Part shown: piece after piece, positions 4,057 through 45,691 of the stretch
How the letters are laid out: each line of letters opens with the position of its first letter
Position numbering within the stretch: position 1 is the first letter of the stretch
From: Kribbella flavida DSM 17836
GTDB lineage: Bacteria > Actinomycetota > Actinomycetes > Propionibacteriales > Kribbellaceae
Assembly: GCF_000024345.1 (NCBI RefSeq)
Contig: NC_013729.1
Coordinates: 4,774,001-4,838,000 of the forward strand
Direction of reading: 5' to 3'
Length of the DNA: 64,000 bases
Notes under the pieces: generated by a model
The model's input: the letters and a program-made list of their open reading frames with translations, nothing else
Database searches by the model: none
Told to the model about the DNA's origin: nothing
Position numbers and translations under genes: made by a program

Positions 4057-5010
4057 ATGCCGACTCTCGACGACGTACGCCGTGCCGCCGACCAGCTCAG
4101 CGGGCGGATCCACCGCACCCCGATGGTCACCTGCTCGGCGCTCGACGCGATGTTCGGCGGACCGCTGTCGCTGAAGGCGGAGCTGTTCCAGAAGACGGGC
4201 AGCTTCAAGGTCCGCGGCCTGCTGTCCAAGACACTGCAGCTCACGCCCGAGCAGCGCGAGCGCGGTGTGGTCACCGTGTCGGCCGGCAACGCGGCCGGCG
4301 CACTGGCCTGGGCCGCGCGGGACGCCGGGGTGCCCGCCACCGTGGTGATGGCGACCACCGCCGTCCAAGGCAAGATCGACGCCGCCCGCGCGTACGGCGC
4401 GCAGGTCGAACTGGTGGACGGCGACCTGATCACGGCGTACGAGGCAATCCGGGACGAGCGCAAGCTGACCGGCGTGCACCCGTTCGACGACCTCGACGTG
4501 ATCACCGGGCACGGCAGCCTGGGGCTGGAGCTGCTGGCGGACGCGCCGCAGGTCCGGACCGTGCTGGTGCCGATCGGTGGCGGCGGCCTGATCTCCGGCG
4601 TCGCGCTCGCGGTGAAGCTGCTCGATCCCTCGGTCCGGGTGGTCGGCGTCGAGCCGGCCGGCGCCGACGTGGTCAGCCGCAGCCTGGCCGCCGGTTCGCC
4701 GCAGAAGCTGCCGACCGCGAAGAGTCTCGCCGACGGCCTGGCCGCCCCGGTCTGCGGCGCCCACACCTTCGCCCTCATCAGCCAGTACGTCGACGAGGTG
4801 GTCCGGGTCGGCGAGGACGCGATCCTGGCGGCCACTCGGCTGGTGATGTCGCGCACCAAGCTCGCCCTCGAACCGGCCGCGGCCGCCCCCTTCGCCGCGC
4901 TGCTCGAAGGCAGCCTGCAGCTCACCGGTCCGACCGCGAGCGTGATCAGCGGTGGGAACCTCGATGTCGGGCAGCTGTTCGGATCCGGGAGCTTGGGAGA
5001 CACGCCCTAG
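4057..5010 (+). CDS. PLP-dependent threonine/serine dehydratase-like enzyme
   Basis: A 317-residue fold-type II PLP enzyme. The Schiff-base lysine is K51 in TGSFKVRG, substrate-loop residues are in VSAGNAAGALA, and the phosphate of PLP is held by GGGG at 174-177. There is no C-terminal ACT regulatory domain, so this is the short catabolic/racemase-like type and not biosynthetic IlvA. Likely reaction: threonine or serine to 2-oxoacid plus ammonia; serine racemase activity is possible. I chose the ATG at 4057 over a GTG at 4039 because homologs begin about here. The stop codon is shared as CTAG with the convergent gene. Confidence 0.88.
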   Translation: MPTLDDVRRAADQLSGRIHRTPMVTCSALDAMFGGPLSLKAELFQKTGSFKVRGLLSKTLQLTPEQRERGVVTVSAGNAAGALAWAARDAGVPATVVMATTAVQGKIDAARAYGAQVELVDGDLITAYEAIRDERKLTGVHPFDDLDVITGHGSLGLELLADAPQVRTVLVPIGGGGLISGVALAVKLLDPSVRVVGVEPAGADVVSRSLAAGSPQKLPTAKSLADGLAAPVCGAHTFALISQYVDEVVRVGEDAILAATRLVMSRTKLALEPAAAAPFAALLEGSLQLTGPTASVISGGNLDVGQLFGSGSLGDTP

Positions 5011-6464
5011 ACGCGCACCGGCTCGCGGGCCGGGAGGTCCGGGGCGACGCCGTCACCGGGATCGTCGACCAGGTCGCCGTGCCGGACCGGGTCCTTGTCC
5101 GGCAGCAGGATGTCGCGGGCCACCACGATCATCAGCCACAGCGTGCCGGCCATCCGCAGGATCACCGAGAACCAGTAGATCTTGTCCGGTGCCTCGGGCT
5201 GCCCGGGCGCCAGGAACTGGGCCAGGTGCAGCCAGACCATCATCCAGTAGAAGCACTCGCAAGCCTGCCAGACCAACCAGTCCCGCAGCTTCGGCCGGGC
5301 CAGCGCGACCAGCGGCAGCAGCCACAGCACGTACTGCGGCGAGTACACCTTGTTCACCAGCAGGAACGCGGCGACCACCAGGAACGCCAGCTGCGCGAAC
5401 CGCGGCGGTCGCGGCGCCATCAGCCCGAGGATCGCGATCGACAGGCAGAGCCCGGCGAAGATCACGATGTTCAGCTTGTTGACGTCGGCGACCTCGTTGC
5501 CGGCCAGCTTCAGCACGTACCAGATCGAGCCGTAGTCGCTGGCCCGCTCGTCGTTGAACACCCAGAACGACAGCCACTCCTCCTTGGCGAGCAGGTAGAT
5601 CGGCGCGTTCACCAGCACCCAGGCGACGACCGCGGCGACCACGGCCTGGAACCACGGCCACAGCTTGCGGCCGCGCAGGCAGACGATCAGCAGCGGCCCG
5701 AGCAGCAGGAACGGGTAGAACTTCGCCGCCGTACCGAGTCCGAGCAGCACGCCGAACCAGATCGGCTTGCCCCGCGACCAGGCGTACATCGCGCCGGCGG
5801 TGAGCACGACGGCGAACAGGTCCCAGTTGATCGTGGAGGTCAGCGCCAGCACCGGCGCGGCGGCGACGTACAGGGCGTCGAGCGGCTGACCGCGGGGCGC
5901 GCCCGGCCGGGTCGCGACGCCGCGCGCGGTCGCGACGGTGAGCCCGACCAGCAGCAGCGCGCAGAGGAACAGCAGCACCACGTTCACCACGAAGAAGACC
6001 CCGGCGGTGTCGCGCTTCTGCTCGACCGTGACGTCCTGCTCGGGGTCGCCGGTGATCACCCAGGTGATCTGCGCCGCGGCCTCCATGAACCCGCCGGTCA
6101 GCACCGGGTACTCCAGCACCGGGTAGTTGCCGGTGTCGAGGAACGGCACGTTGCCCTCGGCGAAGCCGCGCTCCTGGTACAGGTAGCCGATGTCGGAGTA
6201 GCACAGCGCCTTGAACGGCCGCCAGCTCTGCCGGTCCCAGCCGGCGTCCATGCACGGCGCCTTCTGCAGCACGCCGAGCGCGAAAGTGACCGTGCACACC
6301 GCGAGCGCGATCCGCAGCGGCGTCCACCACGACGAGCTCAGCCGGGCGAACCGGCCGGTCGGTCCACCCAGCCCCACCGTCAAACCCGCGACGGCGGGAT
6401 CGGCCTCCGACGGGGCCGGCCGAGCCTGCGCGTCCTGGGCGTCTCGTGAGGTCACGGGGGACAT
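5007..6464 (-). CDS. Polytopic membrane glycosyltransferase, GT87-like (DUF2029)
   Basis: A 485-residue integral membrane protein with roughly ten hydrophobic segments from residue 50 to 460. The first large extracytoplasmic loop has the acidic PCMDAGWDRQSWRPFKALCYSD followed by LYQERGFAEGNVPF and YPVLEYPVLTG, the pattern of polyprenyl-phosphate-mannose-dependent GT-C transferases of the DUF2029/GT87 type. Such enzymes add alpha-mannosyl residues to envelope glycolipids or glycans on the outer face of the membrane. Acceptor unknown. It converges with the dehydratase gene, sharing CTAG 5007-5010. Confidence 0.85.
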   Translation of the reverse strand: MSPVTSRDAQDAQARPAPSEADPAVAGLTVGLGGPTGRFARLSSSWWTPLRIALAVCTVTFALGVLQKAPCMDAGWDRQSWRPFKALCYSDIGYLYQERGFAEGNVPFLDTGNYPVLEYPVLTGGFMEAAAQITWVITGDPEQDVTVEQKRDTAGVFFVVNVVLLFLCALLLVGLTVATARGVATRPGAPRGQPLDALYVAAAPVLALTSTINWDLFAVVLTAGAMYAWSRGKPIWFGVLLGLGTAAKFYPFLLLGPLLIVCLRGRKLWPWFQAVVAAVVAWVLVNAPIYLLAKEEWLSFWVFNDERASDYGSIWYVLKLAGNEVADVNKLNIVIFAGLCLSIAILGLMAPRPPRFAQLAFLVVAAFLLVNKVYSPQYVLWLLPLVALARPKLRDWLVWQACECFYWMMVWLHLAQFLAPGQPEAPDKIYWFSVILRMAGTLWLMIVVARDILLPDKDPVRHGDLVDDPGDGVAPDLPAREPVRV

Positions 6465-16003: not shown

Positions 16004-16498
16004 GTGACCACGCGCAAGCCGGCGGACGGCGAGCGGGAGGAACTGGTGCGGCTGATCCAGACCCTCACCGCCGAGAGCCAGCGGATCGGTCATGCCTTCG
16101 CGCACCGGCACGGCGTGCACGGCACCGATGTCGAGGCGCTGATCCGGGTCCTGGTCGGCGGCGCCGACGGCCGGCCGCTGACCGCTGGTGAGCTCGCCTC
16201 CGAGCTCGGCCTCACCACCGGCAGCGTGACCAGCCTGCTCGACCGGCTGGAGCGGGCCGGGCACGTCCGCCGCGAACGCGACGAGCGGGACCGCCGCCGG
16301 GTCAACCTGCACTACGGCGAAGCGGGGCTCGCCCTGGCCCAGCAGTTCTTCACCCCGCTCGGCAGCCTGCACCGCTCGGTCACCGCCGACTTCTCCCCCG
16401 CCGAGCTGGCCGTCGTACGGCGGTACCTGGCGGCCACCATCGAGGCGTTCCGGACCTACCGGGAGCAGCTCGACAAGCCGTTGAACGACCTGCCCTAG
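16004..16498 (+). CDS. MarR-family transcriptional regulator
   Basis: A 164-residue protein from GTG 16004, placed 4 nt after a perfect AGGAGG; an in-frame TTG at 15977 lies inside the operator and is rejected. The winged helix is LTAGELASELGLTTGSVTSLLDRLERAGHVRRERDERDRRRVNLHYG, with the recognition helix at TTGSVTSLLDRLE and the wing DERDRRR. Flanking helices form the dimer and ligand pocket. It very likely represses the divergent MMPL exporter and itself, and is released by an exported compound. It converges with the anti-sigma gene, sharing CTAG. Confidence 0.93.
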   Translation: MTTRKPADGEREELVRLIQTLTAESQRIGHAFAHRHGVHGTDVEALIRVLVGGADGRPLTAGELASELGLTTGSVTSLLDRLERAGHVRRERDERDRRRVNLHYGEAGLALAQQFFTPLGSLHRSVTADFSPAELAVVRRYLAATIEAFRTYREQLDKPLNDLP

Positions 16499-17199
16499 GC
16501 CGGCAGGGTGCCGCGGATGACGCTGTCCAGGGAGTGCGCGGGGTTGCCGTCGTCGGGCTCCAGGGACACGTCGACGATCCGGTAGCCCTGAGCCGGCAGG
16601 TCACTGGGAAGCTGGAAGGTGCCGTCGTGGCCGGCCGCGAGCACGCCGAGGGAGACCATGCGTTTGCCGTCCTCGTTGATCAGCCACACCTCGTAGTACC
16701 CGCTGGCCGCACTCAGCCCGGACGCGGAAACCTTGAGCTGTGGGCCTGTTGCGGCCTGGACCAGCCCCGCCGTACCGTCGCCGGTCTTGCCGTTCAGCGG
16801 CGCCAGCTTGATGACGGTCTCCGGCGCGGCCGCCGGGACGTCGTCGCCACCACGGAGCAGCAAGGTGCCGCCGATGCCGACACCGATCCCGACGATCGCC
16901 GCGACACTCGCCGCCAGCACAACCGCCCGCCGGCTCCACCCATCCGTACGCCGTTCAGGCCGTACAACAGAGTCGACCGGGACGGACAGACCCAGCTCAG
17001 CCGTGATCCGTTGCCAGACTTCCCGCGGCGGGTTCTCCAGCTCCGGCAGGTCGTCGACCGTCGCGGCCAGCTCCCGCAGCTCGTCGAGACTCGCCTGGCA
17101 GGCCGGGCAGCTGCGGAGGTGGCCGGTGGCTCGCTCGTCGGGCTGCGACTGCTCGAAGGCCCACTGGGCCAGCAGCTCGTCGTCAAGATGCGTCGTCAC
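16495..17199 (-). CDS. RskA-like anti-sigma factor
   Basis: A 234-residue protein: N-terminal zinc anti-sigma domain with HxxxCxxC (H27, C31, C34 in HLRSCPACQ), one membrane helix (about 92-115) and an extracytoplasmic RskA domain (120-234) with YYEVWLINEDGKRMVSLGVL and SLEPDDGNP. It should hold the upstream-encoded sigma factor at the membrane until regulated proteolysis releases it, as for RskA/SigK of mycobacteria. The start ATG overlaps the sigma gene by 17 bp, so the two are translationally coupled. Its stop shares CTAG (16495-16498) with the convergent MarR gene. Confidence 0.92.
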   Translation of the reverse strand: MTTHLDDELLAQWAFEQSQPDERATGHLRSCPACQASLDELRELAATVDDLPELENPPREVWQRITAELGLSVPVDSVVRPERRTDGWSRRAVVLAASVAAIVGIGVGIGGTLLLRGGDDVPAAAPETVIKLAPLNGKTGDGTAGLVQAATGPQLKVSASGLSAASGYYEVWLINEDGKRMVSLGVLAAGHDGTFQLPSDLPAQGYRIVDVSLEPDDGNPAHSLDSVIRGTLPA

Positions 17200-17764
17200 C
17201 TGTCACCTCCTTCAGCCGGTCCCGCAGGTGCAGCAGGCCACGGCGTACGTGGCTCTTCACCGTGCCCAACGGTAGATCGAGCCGGTCCGCGATCTGCGGA
17301 TACGTCTGGTCTTCGTAGAAGGCGAGCCGAAGGATGGTTCGGCGCGGCTCCTCGATCCGGTCGAGCTCGTCGGCGATCACCACCCGGTCCACCAGCAGCT
17401 CGTCGTGACCCGGCGCGACGCCCTGCTCGGCCAGCGTCGCGGCGGCGGCCTGGTCGCGCTGCGCCCGGTACCGCTCGGCCAGCCGGTCGGCGATCCGATG
17501 CCTGGCCACCCCGGCCAGCCAGGCGCCCAGCTCCCCCGTGCCAGGATCGAAGCTGCCGCGGCCCCGCCAGGCCGACACGAACACCTGCTGGGTGACGTCC
17601 TCGGCGTCGCCGCGGTCGCCGAGGGCGCGCAGGCAGAGCGTGAAGACCAGCTTCGACCAGCGCCGGTAGGCGTCCGCGAGGCTGTCCTCACGGCCGTCGG
17701 CGAATCCCTTCGCGATCTCGGCCGGAGCGGGTGGACCCGACTCCGTAGTGGTCACGAACGGCAC
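17183..17764 (-). CDS. SigK-like ECF sigma factor
   Basis: A 193-residue ECF sigma from GTG 17764, with GGGAG 8 nt upstream. Region 2 includes LADAYRRWSKLVFTLCLRALGD, AEDVTQQVFVSAW and ELGAWLAGVARHRIAD; region 4 includes EPRRTILRLAFYEDQTYPQIADRLDLPLGTVKSHVRRGL, the -35-reading helix. The next gene is an RskA-like anti-sigma, making the assignment to the SigK-type (ECF19-like) group likely. It is third in an operon after the DUF4397 protein and the sortase, 25 nt from the sortase stop. That layout hints that it controls envelope proteins, including its own operon. Confidence 0.92.
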   Translation of the reverse strand: MPFVTTTESGPPAPAEIAKGFADGREDSLADAYRRWSKLVFTLCLRALGDRGDAEDVTQQVFVSAWRGRGSFDPGTGELGAWLAGVARHRIADRLAERYRAQRDQAAAATLAEQGVAPGHDELLVDRVVIADELDRIEEPRRTILRLAFYEDQTYPQIADRLDLPLGTVKSHVRRGLLHLRDRLKEVTGDDAS

Positions 17765-17789
17765 TCTAGTGGCTCCCGGTCGAGTCTGG

Positions 17790-18494
17790 TCAGGGCGTAG
17801 TCGCGGTGACGACAAGGTTGTCGCGGTAGCCACCACCGTCCGGGTCGTAGGGACCACCGCAGGTGACGAGGTGAAGGCGGCGCGGACCGGTGCGGCCGAA
17901 GAGCTCGCCGACGGCCAGCTCCTGCTTCTCGACATCCCGCACTCCTTCCACTCGGTACTGCACCGTGCTGCCGTCCGTGGCCCGTACGTCGATCAGCGCG
18001 CCCGGCCGGAGTTTGCGCAGCCGGACCAGCGGCCCGACGCCGTACTCCTTGCTGTCGACATGCCCGCCGAGCACGACCGACCCCTCGCGCTCAGCCGGCG
18101 CCGGCCCGAACCGGTACCAGCCGACCACCGACGGGTTCACCGGCAGCTCCATCTGACCGTCGGCCGCGACACCGACGGCCCGGACCGGCAGGTCGAGCCC
18201 GACGGACCGGATCGTCAACCGCTCCGGCGCCGGGACGACTGTTGCTCTCGGCAACTCGGCGGCCCGGGTCCGGACCGCCGTACCGGGCGCCGGTGGCGAC
18301 GGGACGGGTGAAGGGGCGGCCGGACCGGGAGTGGGAGAACCACCGGCCGCCGGGCTCGCACCCTGCACCCGCCCGTCTCCGGACGCCGTCGACGACGACG
18401 AGGCGCCGGGGCCACCACACCCCCCGAGCACCAGGACCATCAAGACGACGGCCAGTGCCCGGGCGGTGTGCAGCGGGGAGAGCGGTGTGTTCAC
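17790..18494 (-). CDS. Class F sortase, lipoprotein-type N terminus
   Basis: A 234-residue protein whose GTG overlaps the preceding stop (GTGA). Residues 1-25 are a signal peptide ending VLGGC, a lipobox with C26 as the lipidated residue. A Pro/Ser/Gly-rich linker (27-85) precedes the sortase barrel (90-234). Catalytic residues are H145 in LGGHVDS, C212 in LHLVTCGG and R224 in GGYRDNLVV, all present. Class F sortases cleave an LPxTG-like signal and attach the substrate to peptidoglycan or another amine. The obvious partner is the DUF4397 protein just upstream, although that protein lacks a classical LPxTG. Confidence 0.9.
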   Translation of the reverse strand: MNTPLSPLHTARALAVVLMVLVLGGCGGPGASSSSTASGDGRVQGASPAAGGSPTPGPAAPSPVPSPPAPGTAVRTRAAELPRATVVPAPERLTIRSVGLDLPVRAVGVAADGQMELPVNPSVVGWYRFGPAPAEREGSVVLGGHVDSKEYGVGPLVRLRKLRPGALIDVRATDGSTVQYRVEGVRDVEKQELAVGELFGRTGPRRLHLVTCGGPYDPDGGGYRDNLVVTATTP

Positions 18495-27082: not shown

Positions 27083-27376
27083 CTAGTGGCGAATCGTGAC
27101 CAGGCTGGCGAGACCGGAGATGGTCAGGACCGGCTCCAGGAGCGCGGGCGCGACCAGCTCGATGTGGTCGGCGTGATCGAACAGGGCGGCCAGGCCGGCG
27201 CTGTCGAGGTACTCCACGGCAGTGAGGTCCACGACCAGCGGCGGCGTCTCCGCACTCGCCTCGGACAGCGCGGTCGCGAAGGCTGCCGCATTGCTCACGT
27301 CGATCTCTCCGGCCACGGTCAGCGTCTGCCGGCCGTCGGCGGTGCGGCCCGTCGTGAGGCTGAGGGGCGTGGTCAT
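27083..27376 (-). CDS. STAS-domain anti-sigma factor antagonist
   Basis: A 97-residue RsbV/SpoIIAA-like protein. The STAS core has LTVAGEIDVSNAAAFATAL and VVDLTAVEYLDSAGLAALF; S59 in LDSAGL is the residue phosphorylated by an RsbW-type kinase. The ATG overlaps the stop of the big fusion gene upstream (ATGA). That fusion contains both an RsbW-like kinase and a PP2C phosphatase domain, so this STAS protein is the natural substrate of both. The usual output would be freeing a SigB/SigF-type sigma; no such sigma gene is nearby. Confidence 0.93.
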   Translation of the reverse strand: MTTPLSLTTGRTADGRQTLTVAGEIDVSNAAAFATALSEASAETPPLVVDLTAVEYLDSAGLAALFDHADHIELVAPALLEPVLTISGLASLVTIRH

Positions 27377-30300
27377 CCGGTGATCCTTGTCTGCAGTGCC
27401 ACGGTGGTGCCCGTGCTGTCGGTGGTGATGGTCACCTCGTCCATCAACGCCTTCATCAGGACCAGACCACGTCCGCGTCGACGGTCGTCGTCGGAAGTAG
27501 ATTCTGGGGTCTTCCAGCGACCGTTGTCGACCACCGTCAGGTGAAGGTCGTCCGCCGTCGCGGCGGCCAGCAGCCGGATCCGGCCGCCGGAGTCGAAGCG
27601 GTTGCCGTGCTCGATGGCGTTGGCACAGGCCTCGCCGGCCGCGACGAGCACATTCTGGGCGACTTCGGGCGCCAGGCCGCACCGGTCGAGCCAGGTCCGT
27701 AGCGCCGCGCGGGTGGCGGCGAGCCCCCCGAAGCCGGAGGCCACGTCCAGCTCGAGCGGTCCGGGGTGCCGGTAGAGCAGGAGGGCCACGTCGTCGTCGA
27801 AGTCGCCGTGCGGAGCCAGCGTGGACATGACGCTGCTCGCGATGGATTCGATCGGATCACCCCGGCGGGCTTGCACCGCTGCCGCGGCTTGCTCGATGCC
27901 GGCCGTGAGCGGTTCTCGCCGGCGCTCCACCAGCCCGTCGGTGTAGAGCATGAGGATGGCCCGGGCGGGGAGGGTGAACTCCGCCTCCGGCCGGACGACG
28001 TCCAGCCGCACGCCGAGCGGCAACGACCGGCCCTGGTCCAGCAGGCGGGTGGTGCCGTCGGGCTGGCCGACGATGCCCGGCGGGTGCCCGGCGCTGGAGT
28101 ACGTGATGCGGCCGGTCGCGGGGTCGAGAACCCCACAGAAGACGGTGGTGCACAGCGCGCCGGGGATCGTCGTGGCAAAGCGGTCCAGGGCCGCCAAGGT
28201 GTGCGCCGGTCGCGGGTCCTGCAGCAGCAGAGCTCGGCAGGCGCTGCGCAGTTGCCCCATCACGGTGGCTGCCTCCAGGCCGTGCCCGACGCAGTCACCG
28301 ACGACGATGCCGATCCGGCCGTCGAGCAACTCGATCGTGTCGTACCAGTCGCCGCCGACCTTGAGCGGCTGGGCGGCCGGCTGGTACCGGACCCCGAATC
28401 CGCTCGGCAACTGGGCCGGGCCCAGGATGGCCAGCTGCAGCGCGAGCGCCGTCTGGCGCTGCTGGTCGATCTGGTGGACGCGGTGCAGCCCTTGACCCAG
28501 GTGACCAGCGAGCAGCGCCAGCAAGGTCTGGTCCTCGTCGGTGAAGGGGCGTTGCTCCTCCAGCTCGATCCAAAGCACCATCGTCCCGTCAGGGTGATCC
28601 AGACACACGCCTGCACCGGCCATCTGGCCCGCAGTGGGCGTCAGCGGCGGCTTGTCCCGCAGCAGGGTCAGGTCCTGGCGCCGTTCCTCGGACAGCTCGG
28701 TCCAGCTCAGGTCCGGCTCGGTCGAGGTCACCGTGGGCGTGCCGGAGCTGTCGAACACAACACCCAGTACGCGGCGCGCATGCCACACGGCCTGCAGTTC
28801 CTTCAGGGCCGTGCGCAGCGCCTCCGTGAGGCTCTCGGACTCCGTCAGCCGCATGCTCAACGCGGCCAAGGCGCTCTCCCGCTGGACGGCATAGTGCTCG
28901 GCGGTGACGTCACGGAACGTGCCGACGATCACCCGGCGGCCCGTGTCGGGGTCCGTGACCTCGTTGAACGCCGCCGCCACCCACAGCCGGTGCCCGTCGC
29001 GGTGGCGCACCGGAATCGTGTAGGTCCCGCGCGGCTGTTCGAGCACTGTCGCGAACGCGTCGGCCACCTGACGGTGCGCCTCGGGATCGGTCTGCTGGTC
29101 GGGCCACCACGGGTGCACCGGGACGTAGGGCAGCTGGTCGGGACCGAAGCCGAGCACCTCGGTGAAGGCGCTGTTGATCTCGATCACCGCGCCGTCGTGG
29201 TCGCAGACGAAAAACGCCTCCTGCAGGGAGTCGACCAACGCGGTACGCCAGCGGGCGTGCTGGTTGCGCAGCCGGACCAGCTTCACGTTCGTCTGCACGC
29301 GGGCGAGCAGCTCCGCCGCGGAGAACGGCTTCACCAGGTAGTCGTCGGCCCCGGCTTCCAGTCCCTCGATGGATGCCTCCTGCCCCGCACGCGCGGACAG
29401 CAGCAGCACCGGGATGCCGGCCGTCCGGCCGTCGGCGCGCAGATCGGCCACCAGCCGCAATCCGTCCAGGCCGGGCATCATCACGTCGCTGATGATCAGG
29501 TCGGGCGTCTCCGCGCGGGCCCGGTCGAGGGCGGCGTACCCGTCCGTGACGGCACTGACCCGGTGACCGGCGCCGCGCAGGAGGCGGGCGAGGTACTCGC
29601 GCATGTCGGCGTTGTCGTCGGCGATCAGCACCCGGGCCGGCAGATCCCGGCCGGTCCCTGGCGACAGCTGGGTGTCCAGCGCCGAGGCGTCCTCCTCCCG
29701 CGCCGAGCCGGCGTCGTCCTGAACGCCCTCGGACGACGGCAGCCACCGCAGCGCCTCGTGCACGAAGGGGTCGGCGGTCGTCGAAACGCTGCCGGAGCCG
29801 CTGGCCGGCTTCACTGCCGCGGCCGGCAGGTGGCTCGTCCCGTACGGGATCCGGAGGGTGAACGTCGTGCCCTGCTTCTCGACGGAGGCGGCGGAGATCG
29901 TGCCGCCGTGCAGCCCGACCAGTTCCTTCACCAGCGCCAGCCCGATACCGCTTCCTTCGTTGGAGCGGGACCGCGCGTTCTCGATCCGGTGGAACCGCTC
30001 GAACAGCCGCGGCATCTCCTGCTCGGGCACGCCGATCCCGGTGTCGGCGACGGCGACGACCGCGTGGCCTTCGTCGGCTCGCACCGCCACCCGGACGGAA
30101 CCGTCGAAGGTGAACTTCAGGGCGTTGCTGAGCAGGTTGAGCACGACCTTCTCCCACAGCCCCCGGTCGATGTACACCGGCTCCGGCAGCGGCGGGCAGT
30201 CCACCTCGAAGGTCAGGCCCGCCTTCTCGACGGCAGAGCGGAACACGCTCGCCAGCTCAGCCACCACGGCAGCGAGATCCACCGGCTCGTACTGGGCCTG

Positions 30301-31575
30301 CATCCGGCCGGCTTCCAGGCGCGAGAAGTCCAGCAGGCTGTTGACCAGCTTGCCCAGCCGCAACGCACTGCGGTGGATGAGTTCCAGCTCCTCCCGAGCC
30401 CGCGCGTCGACGCCGTCCGGGCGGGCTCGCAACTCCTCCAGCGGGCCGACGATCAGGGTCAGCGGGGTCCGGAACTCGTGGCTGATGTTGGAGAAGAAGG
30501 CGGTCTTCGCGCGATCGAGCTCGGCCAGTTCCTCGGCTCGCCGCTGCTGGGCCTGGTAACTGCGAGCGCTCGCGACTCCCGCCGCGACATGTCCGGCCAC
30601 CAGGTCGAGAAAGCCACGGTAACTCTCGTCCAGGGGCCGGTACCGGTTCAGGGCCACCACCAGGAACCCGGACGGCGACGTGCCCTGCTGCAGCAACGGC
30701 ACCACCAGCGCCTGGGTCGGCGGCTCAGGCCAGTCGCCGGTCGGCAGGCGGCCGAAGACAGCGTCGTCGAGCGCCACCAGGGCCGATGCTCCTTCGGCCG
30801 CGGTCGCCGCGGGCCAGCGGCCGCCCGGGCCCATCGGGTCCGGGCCGATCGGCACGGTCTCCGCGGCGGCGGCATGGCCCGCGGCGATACCGGTCCGGCC
30901 CGCCAGCCGGGCGACGCCCTCGTCGTCGAACAGGTAAGTCAGCGAGAAGGGCAGGTCACGCGGATTGCCGGCCAGCTGCTGGCCCACGAAGCCGAGCATC
31001 TCCCGCTCGGTGCGGACGACGCTGGGGTCCGACCCGAGGTCGCGCAGGGTGGCCATCCGCCGCTCGCCGATCACCCGGTCGGTGTCCTCGGTGACCACGC
31101 ACAACATGCCGACGACCGCGCCGTCGTCGTCGCGCAGCGGGCTGTAGGAGAACGTGTGGTAGGTCTCCTCCGGGTACCCGGACCGCTCCAGGAACAGCAG
31201 CAGCGCCTCGTCCCAGGTCGCCCGGCCCGTCGTCAGCACGGTCTCGATGCGCGGACCGATGTCGTCCCAGATCTCGGCCCACACCTCACTGGCCGGCCGG
31301 CCGAGCGCCCACGGGTACTTGCGCCCCAGGGTGTCCCGCCGGTACGCCGCGTTGCAGAAGAACGTCAGCTCCGGCCCCCACGCCATCCACATCGAGAACC
31401 GGGACGACAGCAGGATGCTGACCGCCGTCTGCAGGCTCTGCGGCCACCCGTCCGGCGCCCCGAGCGGCGTCGCCGCCCAGTCCACCCGGGCCAGATCCCG
31501 GCCGACCTCGCTGTCGGCAGCGAACACGCCACCCGCCGTGAACTCCACCCGGTCAGGATCGTCAGTACGCGCCAC
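27373..31575 (-). CDS. Giant hybrid sensor: PAS, GAF, histidine kinase, receiver, PAS, GAF, PP2C phosphatase and RsbW-like kinase
   Basis: A 1400-residue cytosolic protein with no clear TM. Approximate domains: PAS-like 25-170; GAF 185-345; HisKA with H366 in [14 protein letters not shown]; HATPase 465-578 with [16 protein letters not shown] and [10 protein letters not shown]; linker 580-645; receiver 647-765 with D697 and K749; PAS 775-890; GAF 900-1030; SpoIIE/PP2C 1065-1270 with [14 protein letters not shown] and [10 protein letters not shown]; HATPase/RsbW-like 1275-1400 with [13 protein letters not shown] and [12 protein letters not shown]. It joins two-component phosphorelay and partner switching in one chain. 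The following STAS gene overlaps it. The receiver has no separate partner nearby, so intramolecular transfer is likely. Confidence 0.93.
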
Positions 31576-45169: not shown

Positions 45170-45691
45170 ATGCCGAATCGCAGCAGCCCGAGCCGCGAGC
45201 AGGAGTTCGAGGAGTTCGCCCAGGCGTGCGCCGCACAGCTCTACCGCTCCGCGTGGTTGCTGTGCGGCAGCCACTACCAGGCCGAGGATCTCGTCCAGGA
45301 GACGCTCGCCAAGGTCTACGCCAAGTGGCACCGGCCGTTCGGCCGGATCGACAATCCCGCGGCCTACGCCCAGACCACCCTGACGCGGACGTTCCTCAGC
45401 GCGGTACGCCGGCGGAGCCACGGCGAGCAGTCGCATGCCGACGTGCCGGACCAGCCAGTGGCCGACCTGGCCGCCGTCGCCGACGTGCGGGTCGCGCTGC
45501 ACGACGTACTGGCGGAGCTGCCGAAGGCCGACCGGGCGGTGCTGGTGCTGCGCTACTTCGAGGACCTGAGCGTCGACGAGGTCGCCGTCCGGATGGGGCT
45601 CTCGGCCGGGGCGGTGCGCAACCGCAGCATGCGCGCTCTGCAACGGATCCGCGTCCTGATCGACGACTCACTGCGCATCGGAAAGGACTGA
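45170..45691 (+). CDS. SigE-family ECF sigma factor
   Basis: A 173-residue sigma with GGAG before ATG 45170. Region 2: EFEEFAQACAAQLYRSAWLLCGSHYQAEDLVQETLAKVYAKW and IDNPAAYAQTTLTRTFLSAVRRR; region 4: VLAELPKADRAVLVLRYFEDLSVDEVAVRMGLSAGAVRNRSMRAL. The sequence style and length match the actinobacterial SigE-family ECF group (TIGR02983), which includes antibiotic-cluster and stress regulators. The next gene, 5 nt later, encodes a single-pass membrane protein that is the likely anti-sigma or signal receptor. Confidence 0.92.
   Translation: MPNRSSPSREQEFEEFAQACAAQLYRSAWLLCGSHYQAEDLVQETLAKVYAKWHRPFGRIDNPAAYAQTTLTRTFLSAVRRRSHGEQSHADVPDQPVADLAAVADVRVALHDVLAELPKADRAVLVLRYFEDLSVDEVAVRMGLSAGAVRNRSMRALQRIRVLIDDSLRIGKD

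Follow-up and report, generated by a model that had tools for sequence, protein, structure and literature searches.

The gene pair and its domains

We analysed a 64,000-nucleotide window of Kribbella flavida DSM 17836 (NC_013729.1, positions 4,774,001 to 4,838,000, in a genome that is a single contig of 7,579,488 bases). On its reverse strand lies a gene for a 1400-residue protein, in which a hybrid histidine kinase is joined to the SpoIIE-type PP2C phosphatase and RsbW-like GHKL domain of a partner switch, followed by a gene for a small STAS protein (Table 1). The STAS start codon overlaps the stop codon of the large gene by 4 bp in an ATGA junction. Judged by eye, a purine-rich AAGG-type stretch lies a few bases 5′ of both starts. 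The open reading frame (ORF) and its Pfam matches, all of those listed for both proteins exceeding the curated cut-offs, bear out the chain length and the domain order PAS-GAF-HisKA-HATPase-REC-PAS-GAF-PP2C-GHKL given in a preliminary description of this DNA; the SpoIIE match, for instance, scored 159.8 bits against a cut-off of 25.

Table 1. Gene pair, domains of the large protein and sigma genes of the window (positions are those of the window; residues are those of the encoded protein)
Feature	Position	Strand	Details
Large ORF	27373-31575	-	GTG start, 1400 residues; ORF list and Pfam; hybrid histidine kinase / PP2C / RsbW-like
STAS gene	27083-27376	-	ATG start, 97 residues; predicted phospho-acceptor S59; Pfam STAS
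PAS1 sensor, residues 40-165	31081-31458	-	second PAS_4 Pfam stretch; conservation; AlphaFold2 secondary structure
GAF1 sensor, residues 189-333	30577-31011	-	Pfam GAF_2; variable length
HisKA, residues 356-423	30307-30510	-	phospho-acceptor H366; Pfam
HATPase_c, residues 475-578	29842-30153	-	N484, D511, G513, G543; Pfam
Histidine kinase-to-REC tether, residues 579-646	29638-29841	-	variable length; predicted local distance difference test (pLDDT) below 50 at 615-643
Receiver, residues 649-761	29293-29631	-	D653, D654, D697, S727, K749; Pfam REC
PAS2, residues 781-894	28894-29235	-	Pfam PAS_4; fixed-length helix from REC
GAF2-like domain, about 920-1035	28471-28818	-	AlphaFold2 secondary structure; GAF_2 has three Pfam stretches
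GAF2-to-PP2C signalling helix, residues 1013-1050	28426-28539	-	single 38-residue helix in model
SpoIIE-type PP2C phosphatase, about 1060-1272	27760-28398	-	Pfam SpoIIE 1085-1270, 9.7e-47; aligned with Rv1364c 3ke6
RsbW-like GHKL domain, residues 1285-1395	27391-27723	-	Pfam HATPase_c_2, 7.7e-35, 120 bits
Extracytoplasmic function (ECF)-type sigma gene	17183-17935	-	9.1 kb away; adjoins RskA_C anti-sigma gene (pair 16495-17935); Pfam
ECF-type sigma gene	45170-45691	+	13.6 kb away

The GHKL domain was aligned with Rv1364c (3ke6), RsbW (6m36) and SpoIIAB (1til), and the STAS protein with RsfB (8ih8) and RsbV (6m36_B). The structure 3ke6 was the top match in the PDB both by sequence and by fold, and the VIA-align fold list consisted mostly of receiver domains. 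The chain has HisKA, HATPase_c and a receiver with their catalytic residues present, as a hybrid histidine kinase should, and, as in Rv1364c, a PP2C domain with metal-site aspartates directly followed by an RsbW-like GHKL domain with its E/N-box and G-boxes. The STAS element of an Rv1364c-type protein is provided by the adjoining overlapping gene with S59, and not by the same chain.

The preliminary description had called the system a phosphorelay. This does not hold for the chain, which offers one histidine and one aspartate; Pfam found no HPt match in it up to an expectation value (E) of 1, and an HPt protein acting in trans was not searched for. A full multistep phosphorelay was rejected on the same ground. 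CHASE3, the sensor of RsbK-type kinases, likewise had no Pfam match in the large chain up to E 1, and no RsbM methyltransferase was recognised by eye among the neighbouring ORFs, for which no family search was run. REC and PP2C are both part of the kinase chain, separated by PAS2-GAF2, so the separate REC-PP2C regulator of the RsfSR and RsbKY systems is not what is found here.

Conserved sites, spacings and the likely STAS partner

A tblastn search of genome contigs gave 458 relatives, the best 80 of which were kept and aligned with the window protein (81 sequences). They match almost its full length with 63-72% identity, which rules out a chance ORF, and their hosts include Streptomyces, Actinoplanes, Actinomadura and Mycobacterium. 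All 23 checked catalytic or motif positions of the large protein are invariant in the 81 sequences: the histidine kinase and receiver residues given in Table 1; D1076, D1079, D1094, D1213, D1261 and D1262 of PP2C; and E1315, N1319, H1323, D1350, G1352, G1368 and G1370 of the RsbW-like domain. D58 and S59 of the STAS protein are invariant as well. We take the roles of these residues to be those of standard motif knowledge, helped by the alignments with Rv1364c, RsbW, SpoIIAB, RsfB and RsbV. The catalytic residues of all four modules are thus intact throughout, degenerate PP2C or kinase sites are ruled out, and H366, D697 and S59 were correctly numbered in the preliminary description and are the expected residues. 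Variation was seen in the PP2C region at H1098 (R in 46, H in 35), G1099 (G in 76) and D1260 (D in 55), in GHKL at R1369 (R in 80), L1371, L1377 and D1379, and in STAS at L57, A60, G61 and L62. The most conserved part of the chain is the PAS1 region (residues 20-170; mean identity to the relatives 86%, above the histidine kinase and REC), which hints that the family may sense a single common ligand.

The spacings between domains fall into two kinds. Five have a single length in 81/81 sequences, namely PAS1-GAF1 (25 residues), GAF1-HisKA (33), REC-PAS2 (20), PAS2-GAF2 (26) and PP2C-GHKL (28); the GAF2-PP2C spacing (1035-1076) is 41 or 40 residues, and the stretch from H366 to 475 varies little (105-110). 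In contrast, the tether between HATPase_c and REC (578 to 649) ranges from 45 to 94 residues and occurs in 29 different lengths. Length drift is tolerated elsewhere in the chain, since GAF1 (190-333) varies from 106 to 154 residues and GAF2 from 110 to 124. The otherwise variable tether contains a conserved ADP(F/Y)VxEALRWLP-type motif (residues 601-613, with EALRWLP at 607-613), in which E607 and W611 are present in all sequences and which may dock the histidine kinase and REC, or another partner. AlphaFold2 models were made for residues 640-1400 and 1-780 as monomers, from 61 aligned sequences each. The first (pLDDT 82.2, predicted template modelling score (pTM) 0.50) has continuous helices at 753-785, from REC to PAS2, and at 1013-1050, from GAF2 to PP2C; the second (pLDDT 83.2, pTM 0.56) has a single helix at 317-384 running into HisKA, and a pLDDT below 50 in the tether.

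Taken together, the fixed spacings and the variable tether imply a rigid connection between receiver and phosphatase half and a loose one between kinase and receiver. We therefore read the chain, from alignments and models, as two probably rigid signalling rods linked by a flexible tether, and assign the receiver to the output rod. This layout fits phosphotransfer in cis followed by helical control of PP2C; a linker-helix mechanism has been proposed for RsbU, RsbP, OsaC and Rv1364c, according to the portion of PMC12143880 available to us. It is a better lead than the central surprise of the preliminary description, the placing of a kinase and a phosphatase for the same serine on one polypeptide.

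The next gene was confirmed as the likely STAS partner by its Pfam match and by a downstream same-strand STAS ORF in 80/80 relatives, which overlaps the stop codon of the large gene in 79. By inferred starts, the overlap is 4 nt, as here, in 33 and 1 nt in 45; in one locus (L022) it is an uncertain 16 nt, inferred from a partial alignment, and in another (L058) the STAS ORF lies 1.4 kb away from the large gene. We compared the pairwise distances of the STAS proteins with those of each domain of the large protein, with all other domains partialled out and 500 permutations. The highest partial correlation in the full set was with PP2C (0.337, reached in 0/500 permutations), followed by GAF2 (0.227, 0/500), PAS2 (0.197, 1), the histidine kinase (0.168, 1) and PAS1 (0.112, 30). 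With 46 de-clustered rows the values were 0.309 for PP2C (0/500), 0.222 for PAS1 (1), 0.219 for PAS2 (1) and 0.204 for GAF2 (0). The correlation weakly favours the STAS protein as the substrate of PP2C.

Distribution and genomic neighbourhood

Searches at the level of phylum, class and genus were limited to the 2, 4 and 16 top-scoring candidates of each genome, respectively, and their counts are lower bounds. Near-full-length matches were present in at least 6 of 246 phylum genomes and at least 12 of 148 class genomes, K. flavida included in both and the latter counting a genome (G318) that matches 239-1398. Within the genus only K. flavida itself, 1 of 38 genomes, had a match among the candidates scored, and the gene pair therefore looks accessory. 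No clean insertion site could be shown within the genus, as the two flanking genes tested themselves occur in only 12/38 (E 1e-30) and 4/38 (E 1e-100) genomes. Four plasmid records match 90% or more of the protein's length, with identities of 61-68%; the three of these that carry annotation label it 'SpoIIE family protein phosphatase'. An annotated STAS gene overlapping by 1 nt is present in two of the three plasmid copies inspected (Rhodococcus ruber R1 and S. fungicidicus); the R. ruber R1 plasmid was typed conjugative. On the plasmid of Streptomyces sp. M54 (L131) no STAS gene is annotated downstream of 9182; what can be read there is no more than a short STAS-like start, so that the partner may have decayed while the large gene stays open.

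The full form was found in 6 of the 30 loci from the phylum search, K. flavida included, and one further locus (L095) has HK-REC-GAF-SpoIIE (HK, histidine kinase) without a GHKL match. In 17 loci PP2C-GHKL is present with no histidine kinase within the available stretch, although in 8 of them the frame runs off the stretch and a kinase further out is possible. A STAS domain lies in the same chain in 4 of these 17, in a separate ORF in 10, and none is seen in 3. GAF-PP2C-GHKL proteins of this kind (for example L097) share the output enzymes and the STAS neighbour but differ by the missing HisKA/HATPase_c/REC half. The output half looks like the older module, to which the hybrid kinase would have been joined later.

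Neighbours were counted among unfiltered ORFs within about 6 kb of the 80 loci, six of which had a shorter flank. A further STAS ORF is near 49/80 loci (upstream on the opposite strand in 39), a further SpoIIE-type phosphatase near 23 and a further RsbW-like domain near 7. The whole S. coelicolor genome has 17 RsbV, 45 RsbW and 44 RsbU/RsbP homologues, as given in an excerpt of PMC8346170; against such counts, a proportion of over half of the loci with a STAS neighbour is far above chance, although the loci share common descent. Pfam matches of ten example neighbours were STAS, GAF-SpoIIE, RsbRD_N-STAS, HisKA, HATPase_c_2-SpoIIE, REC-SpoIIE, sigma-70 and MEDS-STAS. A sigma-70 match, by a profile built partly from the genes that it finds, is near 6/80 loci, four clearly SigB/F-like with regions 2, 3 and 4 (L015, L016, L044, L053) and two weaker (L055, L061). 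Partner-switch genes are thus the family's typical neighbours, but a linked sigma gene is mostly missing.

In Paractinoplanes durhamensis (L016, 3175-5883, + strand), a frame with sigma-70 regions 2, 3 and 4 stops shortly ahead of the large gene's frame on the same strand; this SigB/F-like gene is a candidate sigma target in that species. A stressosome-type RsbRD_N-STAS gene, assigned by Pfam at L041 only (4469-5320, - strand), occupies the opposite strand upstream of the operon and has homologues, by BLAST clustering, at L043, L048, L053 and L054, among Actinomadura, Actinacidiphila and Streptomyces relatives. Genes for Dps, phosphoketolase, hemerythrin and Hsp20 stand beside the plasmid copies. 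We rejected these stress genes as a pointer to the regulon, since homologues occur in 1, 0, 3 and 0 of the 80 loci, respectively (coding-filtered ORFs).

The absence of a nearby sigma factor, claimed in the preliminary description, holds for the SigB/SigF type; it does not hold for the ECF type, of which two genes lie within the window (Table 1). Control of the ECF-type gene at 17183-17935 was rejected, since its own RskA_C anti-sigma gene adjoins it.

A proposed path from histidine to STAS

Each part of the chain has a counterpart in a described system. According to the portions of PMC10950880, PMC7693655 and PMC9138534 at hand, Rv1364c of Mycobacterium tuberculosis joins PAS, PP2C, kinase and STAS in one chain, and phosphorylates and dephosphorylates its own Ser600. 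The likeness is in PP2C followed by an RsbW-like kinase on one chain, acting (here putatively) on one STAS serine; Rv1364c, by its published description as far as available, differs in its order PAS-PP2C-GHKL-STAS, with one PAS, no histidine kinase and no receiver, and has STAS in the same chain, whereas K. flavida has it in a separate overlapping gene. The placing of a putative kinase and a putative phosphatase for one serine on one polypeptide, both with intact sites, is thus no novelty, the oddity having already been described for Rv1364c. RsfS/RsfR of M. smegmatis and RsbK/RsbY of B. cereus provide the other likeness, a histidine kinase acting on a receiver that controls a PP2C for a STAS antagonist; they differ in having separate kinase (with CHASE3) and REC-PP2C proteins, and the STAS kinase is a further protein. 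OsaC of Streptomyces coelicolor is, in the sources as far as available, a multidomain PAS/GAF/PP2C protein tied to the return of sigma-B activity after osmotic stress, whose kinase domain binds sigma-B; we compared it by description and not by sequence, and the descriptions differ, an excerpted review giving an N-terminal kinase domain, a histidine kinase and REC, and another partly available paper N-terminal GAF and PAS. The window protein therefore unites parts of the Rv1364c, RsfSR and RsbKY systems on one chain. Judged from the alignments, it represents a real, conserved family in which each principle is known and the combination on a single chain is new. We found no description of the full architecture in the open-licence literature. 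Proteins of this kind may already figure in a review of RsbK-type hybrid kinases by de Been et al. (2011), whose scope reportedly includes actinobacteria and variable C-terminal domains.

Starting from the anatomy, the intact sites, the operon pairing and the linker pattern observed above, we lean with moderate confidence towards a complete His-Asp system that continues into a partner-switch output. How active the soluble histidine kinase is at H366 would depend on ligands at PAS1 and GAF1, and the phosphoryl group would cross the flexible tether to D697 of the chain's own receiver. The state of the receiver would reach PP2C through the fixed-length helices of REC-PAS2-GAF2-PP2C, with PAS2 and GAF2 supplying a second input. 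PP2C would strip the phosphate from Ser59 of the putative STAS substrate and the C-terminal RsbW-like kinase would add it, so that how much of the STAS protein is free would depend on the receiver state and on the second sensors. In its unphosphorylated form, STAS would then bind an RsbW-type anti-sigma factor and free a SigB/SigF-type sigma factor encoded elsewhere. That the receiver may bias the output, as the preliminary description had it, is favoured by its length-locked connection to PAS2-GAF2-PP2C-GHKL and by the variable tether on its kinase side, but the direction of the effect cannot be predicted, since RsbY and RsfR differ in sign: in the parts of PMC10950880 available, phosphorylation of the REC-PP2C protein RsfR by RsfS lowers its activity on RsfB, and RsbK raises the activity of RsbY.

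Several points weigh against this path. The invariance of the sites is partly expected, the 81 sequences being close relatives, and the relative placement of domains in monomer models of pTM 0.50 and 0.56 is no evidence. The STAS correlation is not specific to enzyme-substrate contact, because GAF2 and PAS2 distances correlate too. For the domains not given above it was near nil in the full set (GHKL 0.040, 127/500; GAF1 0.004, 238; REC -0.043, 393), and among the 46 de-clustered rows the values were 0.106 for the histidine kinase (53/500), 0.067 for GAF1 (107), 0.046 for GHKL (141) and -0.053 for REC (405). The correlation thus lends GHKL no apparent support as the STAS kinase. The ATP lid of GHKL (D1350 to G1368) has 18 residues here and 16 in 77/81 sequences, compared, by eye on alignments, with 30 in RsbW and 15 in Rv1364c; loss of kinase activity has been reported for Rv1364c, going by the title of a cited paper. 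One locus from another class (L093/L132) has PAS-GAF-HK-REC-PAS-SpoIIE-HATPase_c_2 without an adjacent STAS gene. No SigB/F-type sigma gene lies near the window gene, the nearest SigBFG match above 200 bits being about 264 kb off, and no biochemistry on any family member was found in the open-licence literature.

These points bear on three other explanations. It is possible, although we find it rather doubtful, that GHKL is an anti-sigma or docking domain and the large protein only a phosphatase, with STAS phosphorylated in trans by a stand-alone RsbW. Besides the missing GHKL-STAS correlation and the short ATP lid, such an assignment has parallels in M. smegmatis, which splits the roles of RsbW between RsbW2 (kinase only) and RsbW3 (antagonist), and in OsaC, reported in a review to bind sigma-B through its kinase domain, both as far as the sources were available. 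However, seven checked motif residues of GHKL are invariant in 81/81 sequences, and Rv1364c, which shares this PP2C-GHKL pair, phosphorylates Ser600 in its own STAS domain, as the accessible parts of two papers state. The receiver, for its part, may serve the histidine kinase as an auto-inhibitory domain or phosphate sink, as reported for B. cereus RsbK, leaving PAS2 and GAF2 alone to control PP2C. Deletion of REC from RsbK gives constitutive sigma-B, which was read as an inhibitory role (available portion of PMC4574943), and the lack of a REC-STAS partial correlation agrees with a phosphate sink. We nevertheless consider this unlikely: REC is fixed by a helix to the output half and variable towards the histidine kinase, whereas a pure kinase brake would seem to call for the opposite arrangement.

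The target of the circuit could also be some other partner that binds STAS or GHKL instead of a sigma factor. Consistent with this, besides the lack of a SigB/F-type sigma gene near the window gene, 76/80 loci have no clear one within about 6 kb (74 counting the two weaker sigma-70 matches). Yet such a gene is close in four loci, sigF of S. coelicolor and its regulator gene do not share an operon, by the part of PMC8346170 available, so that unlinked sigma genes are known, and the K. flavida genome itself has three SigBFG matches over the cut-off and two below it (228 and 211 bits). We think a non-sigma target quite improbable. A stronger form of the path from H366 to STAS, in which phosphorylation of REC would act through a rigid REC-PAS2-GAF2 rod as a push-pull switch, shift PP2C and the GHKL kinase in opposite directions and sharply flip the balance at the STAS serine, also seems unlikely to us; if true, a single receiver would govern both antagonistic enzymes, and the logic of two-component systems would be fused with that of partner switches.

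If the path from H366 to STAS is true, one purified chain and one small substrate would allow the route from a histidine kinase to a STAS protein to be rebuilt in vitro. This would show directly how a receiver controls PP2C, a step that has opposite signs in the two known examples. The fixed linkers versus the one variable tether make a sharp, testable prediction. The architecture is present in many actinomycetes, in a few cases on plasmids, and a general rule derived from it would, if true, apply widely.

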